Positions 2,811 to 64,000 of a stretch of DNA of 64,000 nt are shown in pieces (position 1 is the stretch's first letter; each line of letters opens with the position of its first letter). The stretch lies in contig NC_088300.1 in the NCBI RefSeq assembly GCF_032854445.1, forward strand, positions 18,445,191 through 18,509,190. Direction: 5' to 3'. This DNA comes from Liolophura sinensis. Lineage: Eukaryota; Mollusca; Polyplacophora; Chitonida; Chitonidae. The notes below the pieces were generated by a model that worked only from the letters and a program-made list of their open reading frames with translations, ran no database searches and was not told the origin of the DNA. The position numbers were made by a program, and so were the translations under genes.

Positions 2811-4532
2811 CTGAAAAGCAAGCCAAAACCATTACGTTAAACTTTGCGCACTTCCCCACATCCATTTGCTTGGTTTACGGTCATAAAAGTAACGTTTAGC
2901 ATTTTACCAAAACTACACGTGTCTCGCCAAGATGCAAGGATAGGCGTGAAATACGGAAACCCGGGCAGATCCACCATCTTATCAGGTACGTGACAAACCT
3001 CTGAACTGAGCCTTGCGGCAGAGGCGATGGTGCTGGATTCGAAGCCGCAACCTTAAGGGCTACATAGTGGTCTGAGATAAAAATGACATCCTGATATTTC
3101 TTATCTACTTTCCGTATGAGGATCAAGAAAGCAACGTCCTGATGTTCCTTATCTACTTTCTGTATGAGGATCAAGAAAAATTACCACCTGATATCACTTA
3201 TCTATTTTCTGTATGAGGACCAAGAAAGCAACGTCCTGATATTCCGTATCCACTTTCTGTATGAGGATCAAGAAAAATTACCACCTGATATCACTTATCT
3301 GTTTTCTGTATGAGGACCAAGAAGGCAACGTCCTGATATTCCTTATCTATTTTCTGTATAAGGGCAAAGAAAAACGACATCCTGATATCTCTTATCTATT
3401 TTCTGTATGAGGGCAAAGAAAAACGACATCCTGATATCTCTTATCTATTTTCTGTATGAGGGCAAAGAAAATAACGTCCTGATATTCCTTATCTGTTTTC
3501 TGTATGAGGGCAAAGAAAACAACGTCCTGATATTCCTTATCTGTTTTCTGTATGAGGGCAAAGAAAACAACGTCCTGATATTCCTTATCTGTTTTCTGTA
3601 TGAGGGCAAAGAAAACAACGTCCTGATATTCCTTATCTGTTTTCTGTATGAGGGCAAAGAAAATAACGTCCTGATATTCCTTATCTGTTTTCTGTATGAC
3701 GGCAAAGAAAAACGACATCCTGATATCTCTTATCTGTTTTCTGTATGAGGGCAAAGAAAACAACGTCCTGATATTCCTTATCTGTTTTCTGTATGAGGGC
3801 AAAGAAAACAACGTCCTGATATTCCTTATCTGTTTTCTGTATGAGGGCAAAGAAAACAACGTCCTGATATTCCTTATCTGTTTTCTGTATGAGGGCAAAG
3901 AAAACAACGTCCTGATATTCCTAATCTACTGTGTTTATAGGAAAAAGACAACACCATGCACAGCGGTGAGGATTCTTCACGGCGAGAATGTATGTACAGA
4001 TGACGAGAATGTATGAACAGGCATGTATGAACAGGTGTTGTATGAACAGGTATGTATGAACAGGCGTTCGAGGAACAGGTATGTGTGAACAGGCTTTGCA
4101 GGAGTAGAAGATTCATGTATGGGTGTTGTATCAAATATCAGTATATTCATCAGTAAATTATTAAAGGTACACCCAACTGAGATGAGTACAGTGTTACACA
4201 ATAAAATCAATTAATCAATCAGTCTCTTAATCGATAGTTAAATCAAGATTGAAAACCAAATATATAACTACACGAATATATTTTCATGAAAGGAAGAGAT
4301 TTTCGTGAGAGAAATATTTTGCAATAATCTGCAATACCTTTAAACTTCTCTGTCAGTCGTATCTTACCTGAGGCTATAGCAGACACCACAGAAGCTAGCA
4401 GCACCCACCGTTTGACATAGTCAGGAATTGTTCTGGCGAAGACATACGTCAAGAATATCATCACGTTTAGAGCACAACAGGCAAAGGCCAGTGTCTCGAA
4501 TACCACGAAGGCAACGTACCAGTCTGTGAAAC

Positions 4533-4572
<40 letters not shown>

Positions 4573-7326
4573 AGAGAAACAACTATACACCAGCTAGTAA
4601 TATTTAGCGATACCGATGACATGTTTAAACCTGAAGCTTGTAATTTGGACATATTTATTTACTTTATTTGTCTTTAACGCCGTACTCCAGAAGTTTTCAT
4701 TTGTGTGGCATTGGTCATCTTTAAGGGCGAAGGAACCAGAGTGCCTGTAGTAAACCACAGCCCTCAATGACAAATCTCCTGACGTAAAGCTGCAGTGGAA
4801 CCAGCCAGATGTAGATTCGAACAAGCGATCTCGTTCAATGGTCTGACAGCGAGTCTATTAAGTTTGAGGCGAATTTCGTTTGAAAATGAACAGTAAATGT
4901 AAAATGTATACATAATATGTAAACATTTTTGGTTCAAAACAATAACCATGAGTCATGGGGAACCATTCGTGTTCAGATAATAACAGTTTTCGCCGGTGTT
5001 TCTAAAGCTCCAACATGACTCAACTTTTGTTGACTCAACAAGAGTCAACATCAAGTTGAATGCTGTTGATGTAAGTTGAGTGTCCCATCCACACTACAAA
5101 TCAGATGGGTCAACTTTGTCCAACACTACTGACGTGAGTTGAACGGTGTTGAGCTGTGCTTTTTTTTTCGATAAATTGGACGGAAATCTCCATATTTTCT
5201 CTCCAATGCATGAGACACAAAGGCGAGCAGCCGGAAGAATCGTGTCGTGGGTTTATAGGCTGTGCTTATTGCCACGGCTGTTCGGCGTAGACGTCCCATC
5301 ATGAGACCAGTTTCTCTCTTTTGTCGCCCTTTTCCCCAGGTCGTGTGCTTTACGACGGTCACGTTATGTCTACACGCCCGCTGAATGGCTACTTTCACTC
5401 AACTTCACTCAACTTGTTGACAAAAAATACACATACACATTTCCGATTCAACCGTCATGGATAGTGTTGAGTGTTGTTGAACGAAATTGAGAAACCCGTC
5501 CAGACTACTCAACACGTCTCAACTTGTTCACTCTTGTTGAGTCAACAAAAGTTGAGTGATGTTGGATAGTCTGGACGGGGCTTTACACTACCATCATGTA
5601 CAAATAGATGTGTAAGTATGTATGCTTGAGGTTTAACGTCGTACTTAACACTTTTTCAGTCACATCGCGACGGGAAGTCATTAGGTGTGTACATATACTG
5701 TGTCTTCTTGTGACATGGCGAGTTCATGCCGTCCAAGTGGTGTTGCCTTTGAAGTATCATTCCGAAGACACCAGATATGGCACCCTACCCAGTCAGGTTA
5801 TACTGACACCGGGTGAACAAGTAATGTTTCCCTGTTCTAACCTCTCAGTGCTGAGCGTCAATAGAAAGTATCATTTTTTGCGATGACCCGACCAGGGTTT
5901 GATCTCGGTGTCTCCGGACTTCGAGTGAATGAGTGAGTGCTTTGGGTTTAACCTCGTACTTAAGAATTTTTCAGTCATATGACGACGAAGGAATCATTAG
6001 AGTGGATGTAAAGTGCCTCCTTGATGCAGGGCGGATTTCCACCGCTCTTTTATCTAGTGCTGCTTCACTGAGACGACTTACCGAAGGCAAGTAAGCCGCC
6101 CCGCCCGGGCAATTATACTCATACGGGTAAACCAGTCGTTGCACTATCCCTTTCATGCTGAACGCCGAGAGAGGAAGTTACAACTTCCTCTTTTAAAGTC
6201 TTAGGTGTGACTCCACCCAGGATTGACCCTGGATCTACCGCTCCCAAAACGGGCGAACTGTGCTATCGGGGTCGGTCTGTCCCGACTTCGAGGCAGACGC
6301 TCGACAAATTGATGTGGAATGGTTGCAAAAACTACTGCGTCTCTATAGAACAATATTTGAAAATATTGATGGTATGCATCAGCACTTGCAAAACAAAATT
6401 TGTCTGTAGAGAACTATAACATTAACAATTGTCTGTAGAGAACTATAACATTAACAATTGTCTGTAGAGAACTATAACATTAACAATTGTCTTTAGAGAA
6501 CTATAACATTAACAATTGTCTGTAGAGAACTATAACATTAACAATTGTCTGTGGAGAACTATAACATTAACAATTGTCTGTAGAGAACTATAACAGTAAC
6601 AATTGTCTGTGTAGAACTATAAAATTAGCAATTGTCTGTAGAGAACTATAATGTTAACAAATGTCTATAGAGAACTAAAACATTAACAATTCTCTGTGGA
6701 GAACTATAACATTAACAATTATCCGTGGAGAATTATAACAGTAACAATTGTCTGTGGAGAACTAAAACATTAACAATTATCTGTGGAGAACTATAACAGT
6801 AACAATTGTCTGTGGAGAACTATAACATTAACAATTATCCGTGGAGAACTATAACAGTAACAATTCTCTGTGGAGAACTATAACATTAACAATTGTTTGT
6901 AGAGAACTATAACATTAACAATTATCTGTGGAGAACTATAACAGTAACAATTGTCTGTGAATAACTATAACATTAACAACTGTATGAGAGAAATGACCTA
7001 GGATGAAAAATACTCATGTGGTATACGTCATACAAAACGACCATTTTATGAATTTTACAGCCTTCACATTCACCTCGTAGGCCTACCCGTCCCTTATTAC
7101 CTGCATGGTATGCTTATACCTGAATGGTGTGTTTATACCTGCACTTACCTTTCTGCGGGTTAACCCGCGTACAAAGGCTAAACTCACATTCCTGCCACAG
7201 TCCCCAGGTATCATCATCATGACGACTGCGTACCCAGTTCGGGGAAACGAACGCCGTTAACAACAAAAGAAATGACGAACAGAACAAAATATTAGCTACT
7301 TTCAAAGGCAGTTCTTTCGCTGCCAT
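2626..7326 (-). CDS. claudin/PMP22-superfamily four-TM protein A (3 exons, 172 aa)
   Basis: Joined from three exons, 7326-7149, 4523-4368 and 2810-2626, giving 172 residues with both introns in phase 1. Predicted membrane helices lie near residues 8-28, 62-88, 97-122 and 148-168. The first extracellular loop carries the superfamily signature: W31, then W41-G42-L43-W44, then C47 and C52. The second loop is short (about residues 124-146). Members of this family (claudins, PMP22/EMP, MP20) are plasma-membrane proteins, many in cell junctions; nothing here assigns this one to a subgroup, so the name stays at superfamily level. The start ATG has G at -3 and G at +4. Introns hold a 29-bp minisatellite, a MITE, a SINE and a 48-bp minisatellite. 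It diverges from a second gene of the same design at 18944-21291. Splice joins are inferred from GT-AG sites and phase; no transcript was seen. Confidence 0.85.
3073..3932. repeat. 48-bp minisatellite in protein A intron 2, about 18 copies
   Basis: Unit ctgtatgagggcaaagaaaa plus 28 bases (caacgtcctgatattcctta, tctgtttt). The left third is made of diverged units and the right two thirds of nearly identical ones. As 48 is a multiple of three, ORFs of up to 171 codons run across it on both strands; they are repeat artefacts. On the gene's strand each unit holds TTTTCTTTGCCCTCATACAG, which resembles a 3' splice site. Confidence 0.95.
4005..4098. repeat. short degenerate tandem repeat (tgtatgaacaggta)
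   Basis: About six copies of a 14-18 bp unit built on tgtatgaacagg, in protein A intron 2. Confidence 0.7.
4368..4523 (-). CDS. protein A exon 2: TM2 and start of TM3
   Basis: Codes for residues 60-111 (DWYVAFVVFE onward), phase 1 at both ends. The acceptor reads GGTTTCACAG after an uninterrupted run of 36 T on the coding strand, so the pyrimidine tract is a homopolymer microsatellite. The donor is CAG followed by GTAAGA. Confidence 0.85.
4534..4569. repeat. A36 homopolymer (T36 on the coding strand)
   Basis: Thirty-six A in a row, then gagagag. On the minus strand it is the pyrimidine tract of protein A exon 2, ending ten bases before the exon. Length will be unreliable in assemblies. Confidence 0.95.
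4650..4850 (-). repeat. third SINE-like element
   Basis: Begins tatttatttactttatttgt and gtctttaacgccgtactcc, like a SINE tail read from behind, and ends with a tRNA-like box region (gtagattcgaacaagcgatc). A related piece lies at about 20415-20560. Confidence 0.55.
4998..5590. mobile_element. MITE-like element with inverted repeats, no coding capacity
   Basis: About 590 bp. The arm actcaacttttgttgactca + acaagagt near 5017-5044 is repeated inverted and exact near 5529-5557. Outside it the right end reads gttggatagtctggacgggg and the left end keeps only a deleted version (aaagctccaaca). The interior is dense in gttgag/ctcaac words. No transposase ORF. It lies in protein A intron 1. Confidence 0.7.
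5625..5905 (-). repeat. SINE-like element related to 36-285
   Basis: Inverted relative of the first element in the window; shares the gctcagcactgag, tggtgtcttcgg and acacacctaatga words (on the complement). The 92-codon ORF over it is not a gene. Confidence 0.6.
5927..6290 (-). repeat. second SINE family, near full-length copy
   Basis: Left end gtgagtgctttgggtttaac, right end a tRNA-like head (complement includes CCGATAGCACAGTTCGCCCG and GATCCAGGGTCAATCC). The best copy in the window for defining this family. Confidence 0.8.
6399..6985. repeat. 29-bp minisatellite, about 20 copies
   Basis: Unit tgtctgtagagaactataac plus attaacaat. Variants (tgtgg for tgtag, cagtaac for cattaac) alternate in runs. 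In protein A intron 1, about 160 bp from exon 1. Confidence 0.95.
7149..7326 (-). CDS. protein A exon 1: TM1 and first extracellular loop
   Basis: Codes for residues 1-59 plus one base. Starts MAAKELPLKV, then a hydrophobic helix and the W-GLW-C-C loop motif. An in-frame TTG lies upstream, but the ATG at 7326-7324 is the first ATG in the frame. Donor is AAAG followed by GTAAGT. Confidence 0.85.
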
Positions 7327-28300: not shown

Positions 28301-31300
28301 ACTGCAAATAAACATCAAACATACACCAGTATTACATTGCACTTTTTTTTTTAAGGCAAATGATTAATTTTCATACCAATCCATGTTGGTTTACACACAG
28401 GATACCTTTTTTGATATCGAACAGTGTCAAGTGGGTTACTATTTCCACATCTCACAAAAAAAAATATTTATGGTATTCAGCCTTCACTGTGCATTTTATT
28501 TATTATTTATACTTTGACAATATCATCATTTTGTGTATTTGAACAAATTTACGCAATGCTTTTAGCCGGTTGCCTTTACAGACTTGCCTTGTAGTGTTAT
28601 AGTTGACTAAACTATTAAAGTATTATCGAAAACAAGATGTTCCTTTTTTGACATCATTGTGTCTGGGTGTGAACTATCAAAATGTAATAACAAAAATTAT
28701 ATCTAACTGAGTGAAATATCACTTTTGTCAGTGAAGGAAATCCTGAGCTTTCCCCTCCATATAAATAATAAATTCATGCAATCATTTATACAATGAAGAT
28801 GCCATGATAAACAACAACTTTTTCCATCACTTTCGCATAAAAACCATACAAACCTGCCAACTGTGGTAACATTGCCAAACTCTGTTTATGATATCGAGGA
28901 AAAGCACTGCAGAATAACTCAAATATGCTGCGGACAGCATAGAAAAGCTGGATGGCACACTGCTCTGAGCTATCCACAGCTTCCTGAAGTGTTTCATACG
29001 CAAGGCTCATCATACTCTGAATGGATGTACTGAAATGGGAAAATCAACAAAATGTACTGAAATGGGAAAATCAACAAGATGTACTGAAATGGGATAACCA
29101 ACAAGATGTACTGAAATGGGAAAATCAACAAGATATACTGGAATGGGATAATCAACAAATGTACTGAAATGGGATAACCAACAAGATGTACTGAAATGGG
29201 AAAATCAACAAGATATACTGAAATGGGATAATCAACAAGATGTACTGAAATGGGAAAATCAACAAGATGTACTGAAGGGGTATAACCAAAAAGATGTACT
29301 GAAATGGGAAAATCAACAAAATGTACTGAAATGGGAAAATCAACAAGATATACTGAAATGGGATAATCAACAAGTTGTACTGAAATGGGATAACCAACAA
29401 GATGTACTGAAATGGGATAACCAACAAGATGTACTGAAATGGGATAATCAACAAGATGTACTGAAATGGGATAACCAACCAGATGTACTGCAATGAGATA
29501 ACCAACAAGATGTACTGAAATGAGATAACCAACAAGATGTACTGAAATGGGAAAATCAACAAGATATACTGAAATGGGATAATCAACAAGATATACTGAA
29601 ATGGGATAATCAACAAGATGTACTGAAATGGGAAAATCAACAAGATGTACTGAAATGGGATAACCAACAAGATGAACTAAAATGAGATGCATTGAAATGG
29701 GATAACCAACAAGATGTACTGAAATGGGAAAATCAACAAGATGTACTGAAATGGGAAAATCAACAAGATGTACTTAAATGGGATAACCAACAAAATGTAC
29801 TGAAGGGGGATAACCAAAAAGATGTACTGAAATGGGATAATCAACAAGATGTACTGAAATGGGAAAATCAACAAGATGTACTGAAATGGGATAACCAACA
29901 AGATGTACTGAAATGGGATAACCAACAAGATGTACTGAAACGGGATAACCAAAAAAGTGTACTGAAATGGGATAATCAACAAGATATACTGAAATGGGAT
30001 AATCAACAAGATGTACTGCAATGGGATAACCAACAAGATGTACTGAAATGGGATAACCAGCAAAATATACTGTAGTACTTGATGATGGTAAGACACTGTA
30101 TTGATTTTGGTTGTTACGACTGAAATCCTGAAATAAAGATATTATTTGACTAGTAATTCCTAAAAATTTTACCATGCACATAGATCTGAACTTCTTGCAT
30201 TTGCAGAATTGGTTTTTGATTTTGGACATATGTGATGACATGCCCTAAGCCTTGTTTTGACTCCTGGGAATATTTCATCACTTAGAAGAATTCAGGAGGA
30301 TAAACAGGAGTTTCTGAATGAGTTTATTTTGTAGGCTATTATTTCTAAGATGAAAAAGGTTTAATGGAACTTTTCTTGTGTACTCTTTTATCAATGATGT
30401 ATTTATTTATTTACTTGACTGATACTTTCACCATAATCAAGAATATTTTGTTTATACGATGGCGTCCAACACTATGATGGCAGGAAACCAGGCAGAGCCG
30501 ATCACAGATATGAAGCGCACTATGAAACAATTTACTGAGTTCCCCTTACCTGATGTGACAGACAGGTAGCCTGGTAATGTTCTCACTCAGCTGAACATCT
30601 GCAGCAAGTTTTTCTGCTATTTTCTGTCTCTTCAAAGCTGGAGCCTCAGGATCAAGGGGTGGTAACTCCCCTATGGGTTTCACAGGGGAGATAACCACGG
30701 TATTATGAATCTCTGAGGTAATCAAGTTGCGAGCATATTCGAAGATCTCCTGACACTTTTTGTTGGCAAATAACACCTTGACATTACCTACAAAATCTAG
30801 AAGGCCTTGGTTTGACTCTGACAAGAAATGCATAGATAAGAGCTTGGAGTGGAATTTCTCTGTCTGAATGACAACTTCACGAAACTTCTCCAATTCTGCT
30901 TTACTGGAGGGGATGGCATTCACCAGACATTCCTTGACTATCATGTCTATAACCTTATCTGCAGAGAGAAGACCTAACCTCTCCATAAGAGTAGCTTCCT
31001 TGTCACCCTTAGAATCTGTCACTGTTCCAGAAGGCACATTCAAGAGATACTTGAACAGAAAATCAAACAATTTCTCTAGCTTCTTGAAGGCCACATCTGG
31101 TTTTGGGGCCACGATTTTGTCCTCTGCTTTGCAAATCAGTTTTAGCTTCTTCTCACCCCTGCTTTCTGTGAGCTCAATTCTAGCTGTATCATCTGACACC
31201 AACAGTTTGACTAGATTTGCCACAAGTCGATCACTGAACAGTTTTAATTTCTTTTCCAGAATGTTTGTTTTCTCCATGGCAAGAACAGCCTCTTCAATGG

Positions 31301-34096
31301 CTGCCTTCCCTCTCCCAGAATGCACCAGTGTCAGCTCTACGAGTGTAGAAGGCAATGAGCCAGATTTATCCTGGGGGATTTTCCACACAACATGCGTCTT
31401 CCAAAACTCACCGAGGTCCACGACAAACTTCTCTTTCAGAACACTATACTCTGTGCGGAGATTCTGCATGACATTGATTTCTTCTTCTCCATCAACCACT
31501 GGGAATGACAACAGTGTGTTGATGTTTAACAAACAGCTGGCTGCCGTGGAGAATTCCTCTTCACTTGTTGCCTTGGCAACAGACTTAAACAATTCATCTA
31601 TTTTCATGAGTTTTTCGGCAATGGCTAAAGTAGCATTTGTTTCCTGAAGCTGGGTGGACAGAGTTTGAAATTCTCCAGTTGACATGTTCAACTGAGACTT
31701 GATCTACATGTTTGAAAGAAACAACGACTTCATTAAAGCAGCAATCCGAACAAACAAATCCAGGCTTTGATTGCTTCTTAATAATGAATAATATCACCAG
31801 ATGTACAAAAAAAATCTGCCTAAATAATAAAGTAAAAACATCCAGTCGCTGATGTCACTTAGTCATCTGCAACATGTTCAGAACTTGAAAAGTGACTTTG
31901 AAGCTTATTTTTGGACCATTAGAGTTAAAACTATGAAGACATAATAAGGGCTAGTATGAGACAAGGATATCACAATCTGAGCTATGCATTACATATTCTT
32001 AATTTTATATTTCCTTGACAGGGGTCAAAATTAACTACTATATATTGCCAGATATACTGGTATTTCTCTATTTTACTTTTAAATAAAGGAAAACATCATT
32101 AAACTATTCAATAATCCGTCTTAATTTTAACTGTATGGCATGACTGTTTCATCATACTGGTGAGTCCAAAGTTCCATTAGCTTTGAACCAGCAGACAAGT
32201 GTAACAATTGTGCCCTGCTTGTTCCACTGGTTGCAAATTTTAGACCATTTCTCTGAATAAATGCTGCAAATGTAATGTACAGAAATGTGCTTTTAAATAT
32301 ATGTTCCCTCAAGACCTTGATGATGCAAAATCCCCCCCCCCCCCAACACACACACACGCCGACACCCATGTCTCCACCTTTCAGGTTACTTACCTCTTGC
32401 TCTATGGTGTTGCTCACCCCTTCCATCTGGGAGGACAACTGCTGGACTCTATTAGATAGCTCCTCAGCCTGGCTCAGACTTGGCACAAAGTCATTATACT
32501 GGTTCTTGGTCAGCTCGTACACATCCAGCTTAATCTCATTAACACGCTTTGTTAGTCTGCCTAGTTTGGTAAGGATCTCTTCCTTCTCCAGCTGACCTAC
32601 AGAAAACAGAACATATACTGTGTACATGATCTTAACACAATGGCTTATCAAACCACATCTACAACTGTGGGATGCCAGGTGTCACTATTTTTAACTTTTC
32701 ACCTTCACTTTTTCATTTTCTTCACAAATCTGATGGAATTTGGCCTACAAATGTTACCATCTTAAAATAAATATAAATTGCATAGCTAGAAGAAAGCACG
32801 TTTGGTATACATCAATATGTATAAATCCTTCCATTCGCCGTTCTTCAGATATATATATGTCAAAGTGGATAACTACATATATATATGTCTTCTGCGCAAC
32901 AGTTACATTTATGAATCTGGTTGTCCACGTGTTTCACTTGATTTATTTGACTGGTTATTTGTATATAATTTAAAGACAAAGGCAATAGCTAACAAATGTA
33001 GGCGTTTACAAATTGCCAGTAACTACTCTTCAACATATACAAATACCGGCAGTCATAAGTCTCAGTTTGTCCAATTTATATATCAGAGAATCAATCGTAG
33101 GCTGATGGCCTGATTTACATATCAGAGAATCTGTCTTCCACATATCAAACTTACATGCTAATCAGATCACAGGAAGTGGAGAAGAAGGAAAGTTGGCGTG
33201 CCTACTTGCGATTTTCGTTAGTACCTGAACTGGTGCTGTCATCTGATGCAGTCTCACATTTAGCTGTGAGCCCACATGGTCATATTTCTATTACCAACAA
33301 CTTCAGCTAAGTTTGATTGAAAATCATGGCCTTCCATGTAGGCTCACCTGACCAACAGCCCAGATGAAAGTTCCAACAATTTCCCACCATGCAGGCGCAC
33401 ATGCAGTACCAGTAGTGTACGTCACAACTTTGTGTGATCAAGTCTGATATGTGGAAGACAGATTCTCTGACATATAACTCGGGCCTACAGCCTAGGATAG
33501 ATTCTCTGATACATAAATCAGATAGACTGAGGCTTACGAGTGAGTGAGTGCTTGGGGTTTAACGTCGTACTCAACAATTTTTCAGTCATATGACGACGAA
33601 GGGTGTATGTAATGTGCCTCCTTGTTGCAGGGCGGATTTCCACCGTTCTTTTATCTAGTGCTGCTTCACTGAAATGACTTACCGAAGGCAAGTAAGCTGA
33701 AATCTGAAGCCGGATGCTCTACCAACTGTGCTATCCGGGCTGGTCTGAGGCTTACAACTGTGTGTACATGTACATGGTGAAGAGTAGTGACAGGCGATAT
33801 ATAAATGCCTGCATGAGCTGTTGCCTTCTGTTTTTATACAAATTGTATACAAATAATCATGTGGAGAACCATACAAGATGGACACTTCAATCGGCCGGAA
33901 GCTATACCCCTCGGCCAAGCTTCTGTGTTTTAGGTCGATTTGCAGCATAAAACTAACAAACGTTATCTGCCGTGATCTTACTCTTAATCTTTATCTACAC
34001 ATAGAATTATTTTTTAGTACTTTATGTGTTTCACTCTGCAGAGGTATATTTTTTACCCGCTGATGTTAGAATTTCGGCGACGAGTGAGGTAGCCAT
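25008..34096 (-). CDS. ZW10: ZW10: kinetochore and ER-tether (NRZ/Dsl1) protein, 7 exons, 762 aa
   Basis: Seven exons (34096-34057, 32596-32394, 31703-30550, 29029-28854, 27973-27764, 27134-27000, 25378-25008) join to 762 residues; every junction is phase-consistent. Human ZW10 is 779 residues. Landmarks that match the family include STGEF near residue 90, VWK before the middle domain, [40 protein letters not shown] and the C-terminal [13 protein letters not shown] and LIRALFQNT blocks. ZW10 works in two complexes: RZZ with ROD and Zwilch at kinetochores (checkpoint and dynein recruitment), and NRZ with NAG and RINT1 at the ER (Golgi-to-ER tethering through syntaxin 18). The N-terminal coiled coil is in exons 1-3. 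The gene is head to head with SCFD1. Its introns carry a foldback element, a 27-bp array that ends at the exon 4 acceptor, and sense-oriented SINEs. The ATG has A at -3 and G at +4. Confidence 0.96.
27000..27134 (-). CDS. ZW10: ZW10 exon 6
   Basis: Residues 595-639 plus one base: [20 protein letters not shown], then [21 protein letters not shown] and SKAMG, matching human EENYSAASKAVRQVLHQL and VLPVNIYCKAMG. It has no long ORF of its own and was found by homology and phase. Acceptor CATTTTGTAG; donor ATGG followed by GTCAGT. Confidence 0.94.
27355..27545 (-). repeat. SINE in ZW10 intron 5, sense to the gene
   Basis: Tail tatttattttatttatttga on the left, body to gaaagccagcatgagctgg on the right; the tRNA head is missing. 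Confidence 0.75.
27764..27973 (-). CDS. ZW10: ZW10 exon 5
   Basis: Residues 525-594 plus one base. The first codon is completed across the intron to alanine, then [20 protein letters not shown], nearly the human sequence. It continues through [18 protein letters not shown]. Acceptor CTTTGTCTTTCAG; donor CCAAG followed by GTGAGA. Confidence 0.95.
28854..29029 (-). CDS. ZW10: ZW10 exon 4, acceptor inside the last 27-bp repeat
   Basis: Residues 466-524 plus one base. With the acceptor TTTTCCCATTTCAG the protein reads ...[17 protein letters not shown], which aligns without a gap to human RI-S-ESVKKLMELAYQTL. A nearer AG at TTCAGAG would also keep frame but drops five residues that the family has. 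The chosen acceptor is that of the terminal copy of the 27-bp array, whose unit includes the first six exon bases. Donor GGCAG followed by GTTTGT. Confidence 0.9.
29024..30075 (-). repeat. 27-bp array of 3' splice-site copies in ZW10 intron 3
   Basis: About 38 copies. On the gene strand the unit is TTGTTGATTTTCCCATTTCAG followed by TACATC: a TTGAT branch-point-like word, a pyrimidine tract, CAG, and the six bases that open exon 4. Two main variants alternate, GATTTTCCC and GGTTATCCC. The array's exon-side end is the true acceptor at 29030-29031. ORFs of up to 232 codons exist only because 27 is a multiple of three. Confidence 0.95.
30396..30505 (-). repeat. SINE 3' part just after ZW10 exon 3, sense
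   Basis: tatttatttatttacttgac to aggaaaccaggcagagccg, worn. It starts about 45 bp from the exon 3 donor. Confidence 0.65.
30550..31703 (-). CDS. ZW10: ZW10 exon 3: large N-terminal/middle exon
   Basis: Residues 82-465 plus two bases, 1154 bp, over half the protein. It starts [12 protein letters not shown] and ends [10 protein letters not shown]. It has an acidic/basic charged middle and the [15 protein letters not shown] and ITSEIHNTV blocks that mark ZW10. Acceptor TAG before ATCAAG; donor ATCAG followed by GTAAGG. A sense SINE tail-piece lies about 50 bp into the next intron. Confidence 0.95.
32332..32358. repeat. C13 run and (ac)n next to ZW10 exon 2 donor
   Basis: Thirteen C then aacacacacacacacg, within 60 bp of the exon 2 donor. 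On the gene strand it is (GT)n followed by G13. Confidence 0.9.
32394..32596 (-). CDS. ZW10: ZW10 exon 2: N-terminal coiled coil
   Basis: Residues 14-81, from [15 protein letters not shown] to NTIEQE. Heptad-like spacing of leucine and valine fits the coiled coil by which ZW10 binds its tether partners. The acceptor is TGTTTTCTGTAG and the donor GAG followed by GTAAGT. Read-through of the donor gives a non-family sequence, which fixes the exon end. Confidence 0.93.
32955..33862. mobile_element. foldback element with ~200-bp arms in ZW10 intron 1
   Basis: The left arm (about 32955-33152) and right arm (about 33440-33862, less a SINE of 207 bp and its duplicate) are inverted copies of each other. 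Inner parts such as agagaatctgtcttccacat are exact; outer parts (ttgaagagtag; tatacaaataa) are diverged. The loop is about 290 bp, with no transposase ORF. Outer limits are approximate. Confidence 0.8.
33538..33744 (-). repeat. second-family SINE nested in the foldback
   Basis: Inserted in the right arm with perfect 11-bp duplicates ctgaggcttac (33527-33537 and 33745-33755). Internally deleted: aggcaagtaagc is joined to a shortened tRNA head, gctctaccaactgtgctatc. Confidence 0.9.
34057..34096 (-). CDS. ZW10: ZW10 exon 1
   Basis: Forty coding bases, residues 1-13 plus one base ([13 protein letters not shown]), too short to stand out as an ORF. It aligns with the start of human ZW10 in pattern (small residues, VTEVL-like helix, then SG). 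The donor is GCGG followed by GTAAAA. The next exon opens GT CAG CTG GAG, completing the G-Q-L-E-K-E sequence. Confidence 0.9.
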
Positions 34097-49600: not shown

Positions 49601-52600
49601 AATACTATTTATTGTGCATTGTAAGCCAGTTGTGCTGTAGAAACACTCGCCAATCAGCAACAAGGGGTAAGTCAATCAGTCAGTACTTCAGTAGAACATC
49701 TGTACTCAATTCCTGTTGGGGCCTCCGTGGCTCAGTTGGTTAGCGCGCTAGCGCAGCGTAATGACCCAGGAGTCTCTCACCAATGCGGTCGCTGTGAGTT
49801 CAAGTCCAGCTCATGCTGGCTTCCTCTCCGGCCGTACGTGGGAAGGTCTGCCAGCAACCTGCGGATGGTCGTGGGTTTCCCCCGGGCTGTGCCCGGTTTC
49901 CACCCACCATAATGCTGGCCGCCGTCGTATAAGTGAAATATTCTTGAGTACGGCGTAAAACACCAATGAAAAAAAAAAAAAATCAATTCCTGTTGTTTTC
50001 TGTTCACAGGACAAATCTCTCATGGACATCATCACCAATCCAGAAGGTCAGTTCTTTACTCATTTCTCATGGGTATTTTTTTTTTGGAATTATTTTGAGA
50101 TAGAATACGAATATTTCTATCTTTTAATAAAGGTATCTGTAAAGGTGTGCATATATTAAACTAGCACAGTACTTTTTAAAGATATGTCATCTGTTATCTC
50201 TTCAGACAGTATTTATAGGAGACAACCATGGATGCGATTTAATGCACTTTTTGATAAATTAATCAAACATCACAAAATGTCACATAAATGGCCCTATGAG
50301 GTTGATAACTCAGTCAGATTCGAGCAAAATGTGTCACTTGAAAGGAGGTTAATAACTTTAGTTGAAATACAGTTTTTGTGATGGCACTCCTGGATTCAGA
50401 GTGAGTGAGTGAGTGCTTTTGATTTAACATCGTGCTCAACAATTTTTCAGTCATATGACGAGGAAGGAATCCTTAGGGTGTATGTGTATGTCATGTCATG
50501 GGCCTGTCTTATGAGACAGTCATATCATGGGCCTGTCTTATGAGTCAGTCATACCATGGGCCTGTCTGTGAGGCAGTCACACCGTGGGCCTGTCTTATGA
50601 GGCAGTCATATCGTGGGCCTGTCTTATGAGGCAGTCACATCATGGCCCTGGCTTCTGAGTCAGTCATACCATAGGCATGTCTTATGAGGCAGTCATATCG
50701 TGGGCCTGTCCTATGAGGCAGTCACACCATGGGCATGTCTTATGAGGCAGTCATATCGTGGGCCTGTCCTATGAGGCAGTCACACCATGGGCATGTCTTA
50801 TGAGGTAGTCATATCATGGGCATGTCTTATGAGGCAGTCATATCATGGGCCTGTCCTATGAGGCAGTCATATCATGGGCCTGTCCTATGAGGCAGTCACA
50901 CCATGGGCCTGTCTTATGAGGCAGTCACATCATGGGCCTGTCTTATGAGGCAGTCATATCATGGGCATGTCCTATGAGGCAGTCACACCATGGGCCTGTC
51001 TTATGAGGTAGTCACATCGTGGGCCTGTCCTATGAGGCAGTCACACCATGGGCATATGAGGCAGTCACATCATGGGCCTGTCTTATGAGGCAGTCTTATC
51101 ATGGGCCTGTCCTGTGAGGCAGTCATATCATGGGCCTGTCTTATGAGGCAGTCATGTCATGGGCCTGTCTCATGAGTCAGTCACACCATGGGCCTGTCTT
51201 ATGAGGCAGTCTTATCATGGGCCTGTCTTATGAGGCAGTCACATCATGGGCCTGTCTTATGAGGCAGTCTTATCATGGGCCTGTCCTGTGAGGCAGTCAT
51301 ATCATGGGCCTGTCTTATGAGGCAGTCATATCATGGGCCTGTCTTATGAGGCAGTCATGTCATGGGCCTGTCTCATGAGTCAGTCACACCATGGGCCTGT
51401 CTTATGAGGCAGTCTTATCATGGGCCTGTCTTATGAGGCAGTCACATCATGGGCCTGTCTTATGAGGCAGTCTTATCATGGGCCTGTCCTGTGAGGCAGT
51501 CATATCATGGGCCTGTCTTATGAGGCAGTCATATCATGGGCCTGTCTTATGAGGCAGTCATGTCATGGGCCCTTCTTATGAGGCAGTCATGTCATGTAAC
51601 ATCCATGGTAGAATACAGCAAAGGGATATGGCACCATGATAAAACAGGCCAATTCAACATTTTCAAATGTGTGCTTGTTTTAGCTCATTTTTATACTAAC
51701 AACTTTCCTGTGTTCTACTTTATGTTCCCAGCTGCTGACATATACCTCTTTGTATAAATACAACCTCCATTGTTATTTCTGTGCAAGAATTCTCACTACA
51801 TTGACTTTATAAATTTCTCTTTCCACTTCCAACTTCATACACATGTTTTGTGTTTTGGATTTAATCATTCTAATTAAGTGGTTACCATGACAGAAATATT
51901 CATGCCAGAGGAAAAGAATCAATCAACCCTGCTCCGTTATTGCTTTCTTCCCTGGCTTCATCTAGTGTATTATTCTTCCAAATGACAGCACGCAGACTTT
52001 ACAGATGTTTTTGTTCTTGACTTGTTAGTAGTTTTTATTGGCTATTGATTCTCCATTAGCTTTAATCCCCTGCAATCTTCTGACATAACCCACACGGGAT
52101 TGCCAGCACATCGATTACCTGTCATGCTGTGCAGAGGCATCCTCGTAGCTCTAGACTTCCTTAAATTGAAACACAGATTTTTATTTTAATGGGTTTCACT
52201 GAGGGTAAAGTGAAAGGCTCAGCTTGAATCAGGTAGTTACTGCTGAAATTTCCCACCAGATTCTGTGCTGTTCATTTCCAATGTTCTGGTTGACATGAAA
52301 TGGGCATGACCTCATTATCTTCTATTTCCTTTGCCCCAGCCTCTCGGTATTAAAAAAAAAAAAAGTAAATTGTAAGAGAAAAGCTTTAGGTACTTCATTC
52401 AGTTTTTAGAAAAAAACAATCTAGGCAGGGAATGGCAATAAATCTCTATTATAGGAAGATCTCATCAGTTTACCTCACTGGAAGCAGCTTAATTATGATC
52501 AATACTTGTGCGCAGAAATCCATACAGAGATGCTAGTACTTTGATGTTCTCATGTGAGAGGATTTTTGCAAATTCAATACATTTTTTTGTTTTTTGTCCA

Positions 52601-63164: not shown

Positions 63165-64000
63165 CTGTGAAGGAGACTGGGGACTTTATAGCATGTAAAC
63201 TGATTGTGGAGGAGACTGGAGACTTTATAGCATGTAAACTGATTGTGTAGGGGACTGGGGGGCTATACCATGTAAACTGATTGTGGAGGAGACTGGGGAC
63301 TTTATACCATGTAAACTGATTGTGGAGGAGACTGGGAACTTTATACCATGTAAACTGATTGTGGAGGGGACTGGGGGGACTATACCATGTAAACTGATTG
63401 TGGAGGAGATTGGGGACTTTATAGCATGTAAACTGATTGTGGAGGAGACTGGGGACTTTATACCATGTAAACTGATTGTGGAGGAGACTGGGGACTTTAA
63501 CACCATGTAAACTGATTGTGGAGGAGACCGGGGGACTATACCACGTAAACTGAATGTGGAGGAGACCGAGGGATTATACCCATGTAACCTGATTGAGGAG
63601 GGGACTGGGGACTTTATAGCATGTAAACTGATTGTGGAGGAGACTGGGGGACTATACCATGTAAACTGATTGAGGAGGGGACTGGGGGACTATACCATGT
63701 AAACTGATTGTGGAAGGGATGGAGGGACTATACCATGTAAACTGATTGTAGAGGAGACTGGGGGACTATACCATGTAAACTGATTGTAGAGGAGACTGCG
63801 GGACTACACCATGTAACTGATTGTAGAGGAGACTGCGGGACTACACCATGTAACCTGATTGTAGAGGAGACTGGGGGACTATACCATGTAAACTGACTGT
63901 TGAGGAGACGAGGGGGACTTTATATCATGTAAACTGATTGTATAGGAGGCTTGGGGGTTTTATACTTCATTACGCTGATTGTGGAAGGGACTTGGGACTA
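63165..64000. repeat. ~38-bp minisatellite running off the window end
   Basis: About 22 units of accatgtaaactgattgtgg plus aggagactgggggactat, 37-40 bp each, still going at base 64000. Confidence 0.95.

Follow-up and report, generated by a model that had tools for sequence, protein, structure and literature searches.

In the chiton Liolophura sinensis, a gene whose translation aligns with the ZW10 protein carries at one of its intron-exon borders a minisatellite in which 38 units each bear a 3' splice site, the last of these sites lying directly at the exon. Such border arrays form a class in this chiton and the ZW10 array is not a one-off, as comparable arrays are found at donors and acceptors of chaperonin, MCM and proteasome genes; this wider sample is a more interesting result than the ZW10 array alone. 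We read the ZW10 array as a mirage-type minisatellite, of the kind described in amphioxus, in which the exon-proximal copy still works, the remaining copies are mostly ignored and the border was not specially targeted, and we give this reading a probability of roughly 0.75. The genome was published as that of L. japonica (PMC11068029), a correction renaming the species Liolophura sinensis.

The features of the ZW10 locus are listed below as positions in the window, by which we mean the whole 64,000-nt stretch of DNA that was analysed. The numbering of exons 3 and 4 is that of the first-pass annotation, exons further upstream being uncounted, and a slash marks a splice border.

29024..30075, minus strand: 27-bp minisatellite, 38 acceptor-bearing units and one truncated copy lacking the AG (TRF and reading by eye)
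Gene-strand consensus of the array unit, -21..+6: TTGTTGATTATCCCATTTCAG/TACATC
28854..29029, minus strand: ZW10 'exon 4', 176 nt
29024-29029, minus strand: TACATC, the first six bases of exon 4 and part of the last unit
29030..29031, minus strand: AG of the 3' splice site nearest the exon, presumed to be functional (gapless join against 7qpg_W)
29043..29047, minus strand: TTGAT of the last unit, branch-point-like by motif, with its A at -15 (29044); putative branch point
Minus strand: next TTGAT upstream of that of the last unit, with its A at -42 (29071)
29676..29717, minus strand: irregular 42-nt step between units 13 and 14, consisting of a copy with AG changed to AA and a truncated unit (by eye)
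29030..30549, minus strand: intron 3, 1520 nt, 1046 nt of which are array
30548..30549, minus strand: GT of the intron-3 donor, CATCAG/GTAAGG
30550..31703, minus strand: ZW10 exon 3 open frame, its 5' limit being that of the open frame and not a proven splice site
Predicted spliced junction, exon 3 with the last unit: CATCAG/TACATCCATTCAG
Predicted spliced junction, exon 3 with upstream units: CATCAG/TACATCTTGTTG

The first-pass annotation had described about 38 near-identical acceptors ending at the border of exon 4, with TACATC as the start of that exon. Stepping back from the exon border, we counted 38 acceptor units, all of which (38/38) carry the AG; the exon begins at 29029, and the array unit spans the border. 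The acceptors are spaced 27 nt apart except for one step of 26 and the one of 42 nt. TRF reports the array at 29024-30072 with a period of 81, 13.1 copies and a score of 1580, and also gives a period of 54 for the same stretch and a period of 27 in two pieces; by eye, the final part-unit extends to about 30075. This score, together with 38 acceptors in register, rules out a chance or simple repeat. The motifs that had been assigned to each unit are present without being universal: TTGAT is exact in 21/38 units, TTTCAG in 31/38 and TACATC in 25/38, and at the TTGAT position 15 units have TTGGT and 1 has CTGGT. Positions -15 (A/G) and -12 (A/T) are clearly two-state, and the mean pairwise difference among units is 0.108 per site. 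A search of the 609-Mb assembly, which may miss common words, returned 17 matches to the repeat, all at one locus, so that an origin from a dispersed satellite or transposon was set aside within the reach of that search.

Joining exon 3, which ends at 30550 with a GTAAGG donor, to 29029 gives an alignment without gap over 73 residues with the 'zw10 homolog' chain 7qpg_W (E 1.3e-20), which we take to be human ZW10; the earlier statement that the last acceptor restores a gapless alignment is thereby borne out. It is on this protein conservation that the last acceptor is presumed to be the working site, and the conserved protein is consistent with a regular mRNA being made despite the repeats. 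Use of any of the 37 upstream acceptors is predicted to bring in a premature stop (37/37), as had been expected from the units next to the exon. These stops lie 5 to 61 codons past the junction, at codon 5 in 20/37 cases, and between each of them and the end of exon 4 there remain 156 nt or more. By the exon-junction rule, mRNAs with stops so placed are expected targets of nonsense-mediated decay (NMD). Inside exon 4, use of an in-frame AG at +15, five codons in, would remove five residues of the gapless alignment, and use of the AG at +13 would lead to stops within four codons.

The local sequence of the last acceptor does not set it apart. Over -20..+3, 11 of the 37 upstream acceptors are identical to it, and a model that reads the local site alone therefore cannot single it out. 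With a score matrix built from 120 called acceptors of the same species, for which the calls are heuristic and partly circular (pyrimidine content was used in calling), the last acceptor reaches 9.3, the sampled median being 9.6; three array units score higher and one other equals it. The idea of a stronger last acceptor is thus unsupported, its score being ordinary and like that of its neighbours.

To place the ZW10 array among other genes, exon matches from five conserved families were examined for a minisatellite spanning or ending on a splice border, after exclusion of arrays with a period below 9, fewer than 2 copies or a score below 80. Among 153 exon matches, six borders, read by eye, carry such an array, in CCT5, CCT3 (three), MCM9 and PSMB1, as follows.

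CCT5 donor: 109-bp unit, 5 copies, GT in 5/5, 93 bp of exon in the array
CCT3 donor: 66-bp unit, 7 copies, sampled stretch L011 1558-2018, GT in 7/7, 44 bp of exon in the array
Second CCT3 donor: degenerate array, GT in 4/5, 25 bp of exon in the array
CCT3 acceptor: 41-bp unit, at least 6 units (to the end of the retrieved stretch), AG in 6/6, array ending on the first exon base
MCM9 acceptor: 64-bp unit, at least 10 units, L026 704-1323 (to the end of the retrieved stretch), AG in 10/10, at least 17 bp of exon in the array
PSMB1 donor: 80-bp unit, 6 copies, GT in 4/6, 27 bp of exon in the array

Array ends and borders were compared by hand to obtain the exon overlaps. Gene names, and ungapped matches reaching the border or ending one residue short of it, were taken from PDB sequence matches at five of the six borders, the second CCT3 donor being excluded. 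By family, border arrays occur in 4/47 CCT, 1/26 MCM, 1/21 proteasome and 0/35 actin-related matches, and a replicate family, the class I tRNA synthetases, has none among its 24 exon matches, at an array coverage of 3.9%. Outside the CCT genes the rate is low (2/106 matches). These counts use 47 of 50 CCT matches, three in long intronless frames being omitted, 35 of 56 actin-family matches, and all of the MCM (26/26), proteasome (21/21) and tRNA synthetase (24/24) matches. Of the 21 omitted actin matches, which were picked from the table ahead of reading their sequence, seven are actin bodies and another seven are first exons belonging to these; the rest are one match containing many stops and six weak matches at scattered places.

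Several arrays near borders were left uncounted. One CCT3 exon lies between two minisatellites (L011 7174-8344 and 8453-8701), namely the 41-bp acceptor array at its 5' border and, starting about 12 nt past the donor, one with about 43 copies of a 27-bp unit, which was not counted as border-spanning. In the tRNA synthetase replicate, arrays adjoining an acceptor at L062 716-877 and L071 187-599 have units without an AG at that place, the array at L065 788-1125 has donor-like copies (ATGGTAAGTT) 59 nt past the exon match, and in L017 an array lies 38-55 nt ahead of the exon match. As for the counted 66-bp CCT3 donor array, it is open in the frame of the exon, and use of its distal donors would insert in-frame repeats of 22 residues.

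Conserved coding sequence lies inside the arrays of CCT5, CCT3, MCM9 and PSMB1, and the exon is therefore the source of the copies there. The MCM9 array copies differ from their exon in one respect: by eye, 6/9 of them encode SVSVNIA, as does the MCM9 chain 7wi7_B, whereas the chiton exon encodes SISVNIA, as if the copies had kept an older state of the exon. For ZW10, the first-pass proposal of a tandem duplication across the border gains by analogy with these four genes, but the direction of copying is unproven in ZW10 itself, given an exonic share of six bases only.

Minisatellites are common in this DNA irrespective of borders. Arrays of three copies or more make up 9.5% of the window, and arrays of two copies or more make up 8.2% of the 179,892 bases of the first sample. 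Among the first 129 exon matches, with heuristically called borders and as raw percentages without a significance test, arrays cover 4.5% of the 112 called donors (5 donors; 4 were verified, the fifth, in L011, being a miscall inside an array) and 1.7% of the 120 called acceptors (2); 350-550 nt deep in the intron, the respective figures are 7.8% and 5.4%. A special targeting of arrays to exon borders is not supported, coverage being lower at borders than deeper in introns, and this lack of enrichment points to ordinary minisatellite growth together with tolerance. Further long minisatellites of the window lie at 3089-3927, 6400-6983, 50490-51596 and 63166-63999, with units of 48, 29, 29 and 39 bp, respectively.

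Arrays of this kind have precedents, and the view of the ZW10 array as unprecedented does not hold. In amphioxus, border-spanning minisatellites termed mirages are described in Adh3, the globin genes BflGb6 and BflGb9 and troponin C, with similar repeats in PGBD5, in the accessible text of PMC3087553 and PMC3902484; the former reports that those of Adh3 and the globins do not hinder regular splicing and the latter that those of Adh and troponin C likewise leave splicing normal. As far as those texts go, mirages are, like the ZW10 array, tandem duplications of an intron/exon border in which many units carry AG or GT splice signals, and BflGb6 repeats, as ZW10 does, the 3' end of an intron and the start of the next exon. 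The ZW10 array has the same traits, namely a border-spanning unit, splice signals within the units and several affected genes in the genome. It therefore belongs to the known mirage kind and is notable for its copy number and for its mollusc host, the amphioxus mirages being those of a cephalochordate: BflGb6 haplotypes have 3 and 6 units of 150-160 bp and Adh3 units measure 10-72 bp in the same texts, compared to 38 units of 27 bp in ZW10. Moreover, RT-PCR and length instability are reported there for the amphioxus mirages, whereas the ZW10 array is known from one assembled copy. A literature search, to which subscription journals were out of reach, found no report of mirages outside cephalochordates, and a search for chiton minisatellites gave only Theileria papers, judged by title. 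The 'mirage' of PMC9071541 is a transposon.

Other repeats share single traits with the ZW10 array. A 1995 paper, known from its title in the reference list of PMC2572611, concerns a minisatellite with multiple splice donors in an interferon-induced transcript. Going by that title, this repeat too supplies an array of splice sites, which are donors there and acceptors in ZW10. The gene concerned is presumably human G1P3/IFI6. NAGNAG tandem acceptors, which are spaced 3 nt apart, likewise compete at a single intron end, whereas the ZW10 acceptors have a spacing of 27 nt and a pyrimidine tract of their own in each unit. In human segmental duplications, tandem repeats with units of about 30 bp also occur at exon borders and are able to alter splicing; in the accessible part of PMC2812944 these have 4 units on average, concern recent paralogues and are tied to new introns, whereas ZW10 is a conserved gene with tens of units. 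In another mollusc, an abalone TSSK1-like gene harbours a 27-bp minisatellite of which individuals carry different numbers of units; it is described as intronic, a span over the splice border being unstated in the portion of PMC6905558 at hand, whereas the ZW10 array spans the border.

As to how the ZW10 array may have come about and is endured, a tandem duplication would have begun across the border of intron 3 and exon 4 and grown to 38 copies on the intron side. The exon-proximal copy would remain the working acceptor and the remaining copies would be intronic pseudo-acceptors. Exon 4, with 176 nt facing an intron of 1520 nt, may be defined from its own donor and its exonic sequence toward the nearest competent acceptor, and the last 27-nt unit probably holds a complete set of signals, i.e. 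the branch-like TTGAT, a pyrimidine tract and the AG. Transcripts that use an upstream copy, being stopped early, would be expected to enter NMD. In a genome rich in minisatellites, some arrays would thus happen to take in a splice site and could persist for as long as the exon-proximal copy functions.

Beyond the anatomy of the locus shown here, exon definition and exonic context are likely to be what lets the exon-proximal site win. For human data, the accessible text of PMC9225289 states that exon definition, where long introns flank the exon, favours the splice sites nearest to each other across it, and that it lessens the preference for the upstream one of two similarly strong 3' sites, a reversal being unstated there; this lends the exon-definition account weak support. 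With a preference that is lessened and, in that text, not stated to be reversed, closeness to the exon would not by itself lead one to expect that nearly all splicing goes to the last of 38 sites. In the scanning model, the first AG past the branch point is taken (PMC1431707); a branch point further upstream would then have another ZW10 copy picked, which counts against the exon-proximal account. The AG-free zone ahead of exon 4 measures 27 nt only, and the A of TTGAT is about 14 nt before its own AG, inside the 12-15 nt range where AGs may be bypassed, which also counts against it. Taken together, these two distances would place the branch point either in the last unit or in the preceding unit with the AG of the latter bypassed.

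A regulatory role has been considered as well, in which a good part of the ZW10 pre-mRNA is spliced to upstream copies, stops early and is degraded, so that the copy number tunes the ZW10 level via NMD. The local identity of 11 of the 37 upstream acceptors to the last one and the stops that follow from all 37 are in keeping with this, as is the upstream preference of competing human 3' sites reported in the accessible text of PMC9225289. Yet the amphioxus mirages are reported, in the parts of PMC3087553 and PMC3902484 seen, to leave the regular mRNA undisturbed, and the copies of the 66-bp donor array in CCT3 can be read through in frame, so stops are not general to such arrays. We regard tuning through NMD as distinctly unlikely. 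With the CCT3 array open, the idea that stops are a general safeguard of such arrays is likewise unsupported. Retention of the AG in 38/38 units is the sole observation that bears on selection for or against them.

It is also conceivable that the ZW10 repeat was born within the intron and that a unit at its edge later displaced the old acceptor, in which case the six 'exonic' bases would be repeat-derived. Such an origin would fit the small exonic share in ZW10 and the abundance of minisatellites here, in the window as well as in both samples. Against it speak the length of exon 4, which is kept without a gap relative to the ZW10 chain 7qpg_W, and the array copies of CCT5, CCT3, MCM9 and PSMB1, which hold conserved coding sequence that is necessarily exon-derived; on balance we consider an intronic birth unlikely. 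A false expansion of a short repeat during assembly is hardly credible, even if tandem repeats are prone to mis-assembly and the available text of PMC3087553 reports one such case for an amphioxus mirage in a draft genome: the mean HiFi read given in the accessible part of PMC11068029 is, at 8,347 bp, longer than the 1.05-kb array, whose units differ from one another in mixed point changes, unlike a stutter of identical copies. The reading as a mirage-type array with a working exon-proximal acceptor is the one we prefer.

A bolder version of this preferred reading holds that minisatellites carrying splice sites form a standing class throughout the genome of this chiton, found at donors as well as acceptors of essential genes, and that they persist because the chiton spliceosome obeys a strict exon-proximal rule under which the site's own sequence hardly counts. 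We put this forward tentatively and would lean against it at present. If such a rule were true, arrays could reach dozens of near-identical sites without loss of the correct junction, and drift in copy number would amount to an ongoing natural experiment on how splice sites are chosen.

Studies of splice-site choice usually work with a few engineered sites. Older experiments with duplicated splice sites are those of Reed and Maniatis (1986) and of Lang and Spritz (1983). ZW10 offers 38 natural, near-identical competing acceptors, and chaperonin and proteasome genes of this chiton hold donor arrays in parallel. With 11/37 upstream copies identical to the presumed working one, any difference in their usage would have to come from position, exon context or the choice of branch point. 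The RNA-seq data from five tissues (digestive gland, foot, gill, gonad and heart; SAMN35319765 and following) listed in Table 1 of PMC11068029, which as far as the accessible text tells stem from a different individual than the genome and may therefore have another number of units, allow acceptor use to be tested directly. Should the rate in the sample, which consists of conserved families and is not random, prove representative, there would be many such arrays in this chiton, and these would bear on intron gain and on the evolution of exon borders.

Elsewhere in the assembly, contig C99 has seven COX1 matches with in-frame TGA, about 15.5 kb apart, and another copy is found on C632; the series on C99 is an apparent tandem of the mitochondrial genome and probably an assembly concatemer.
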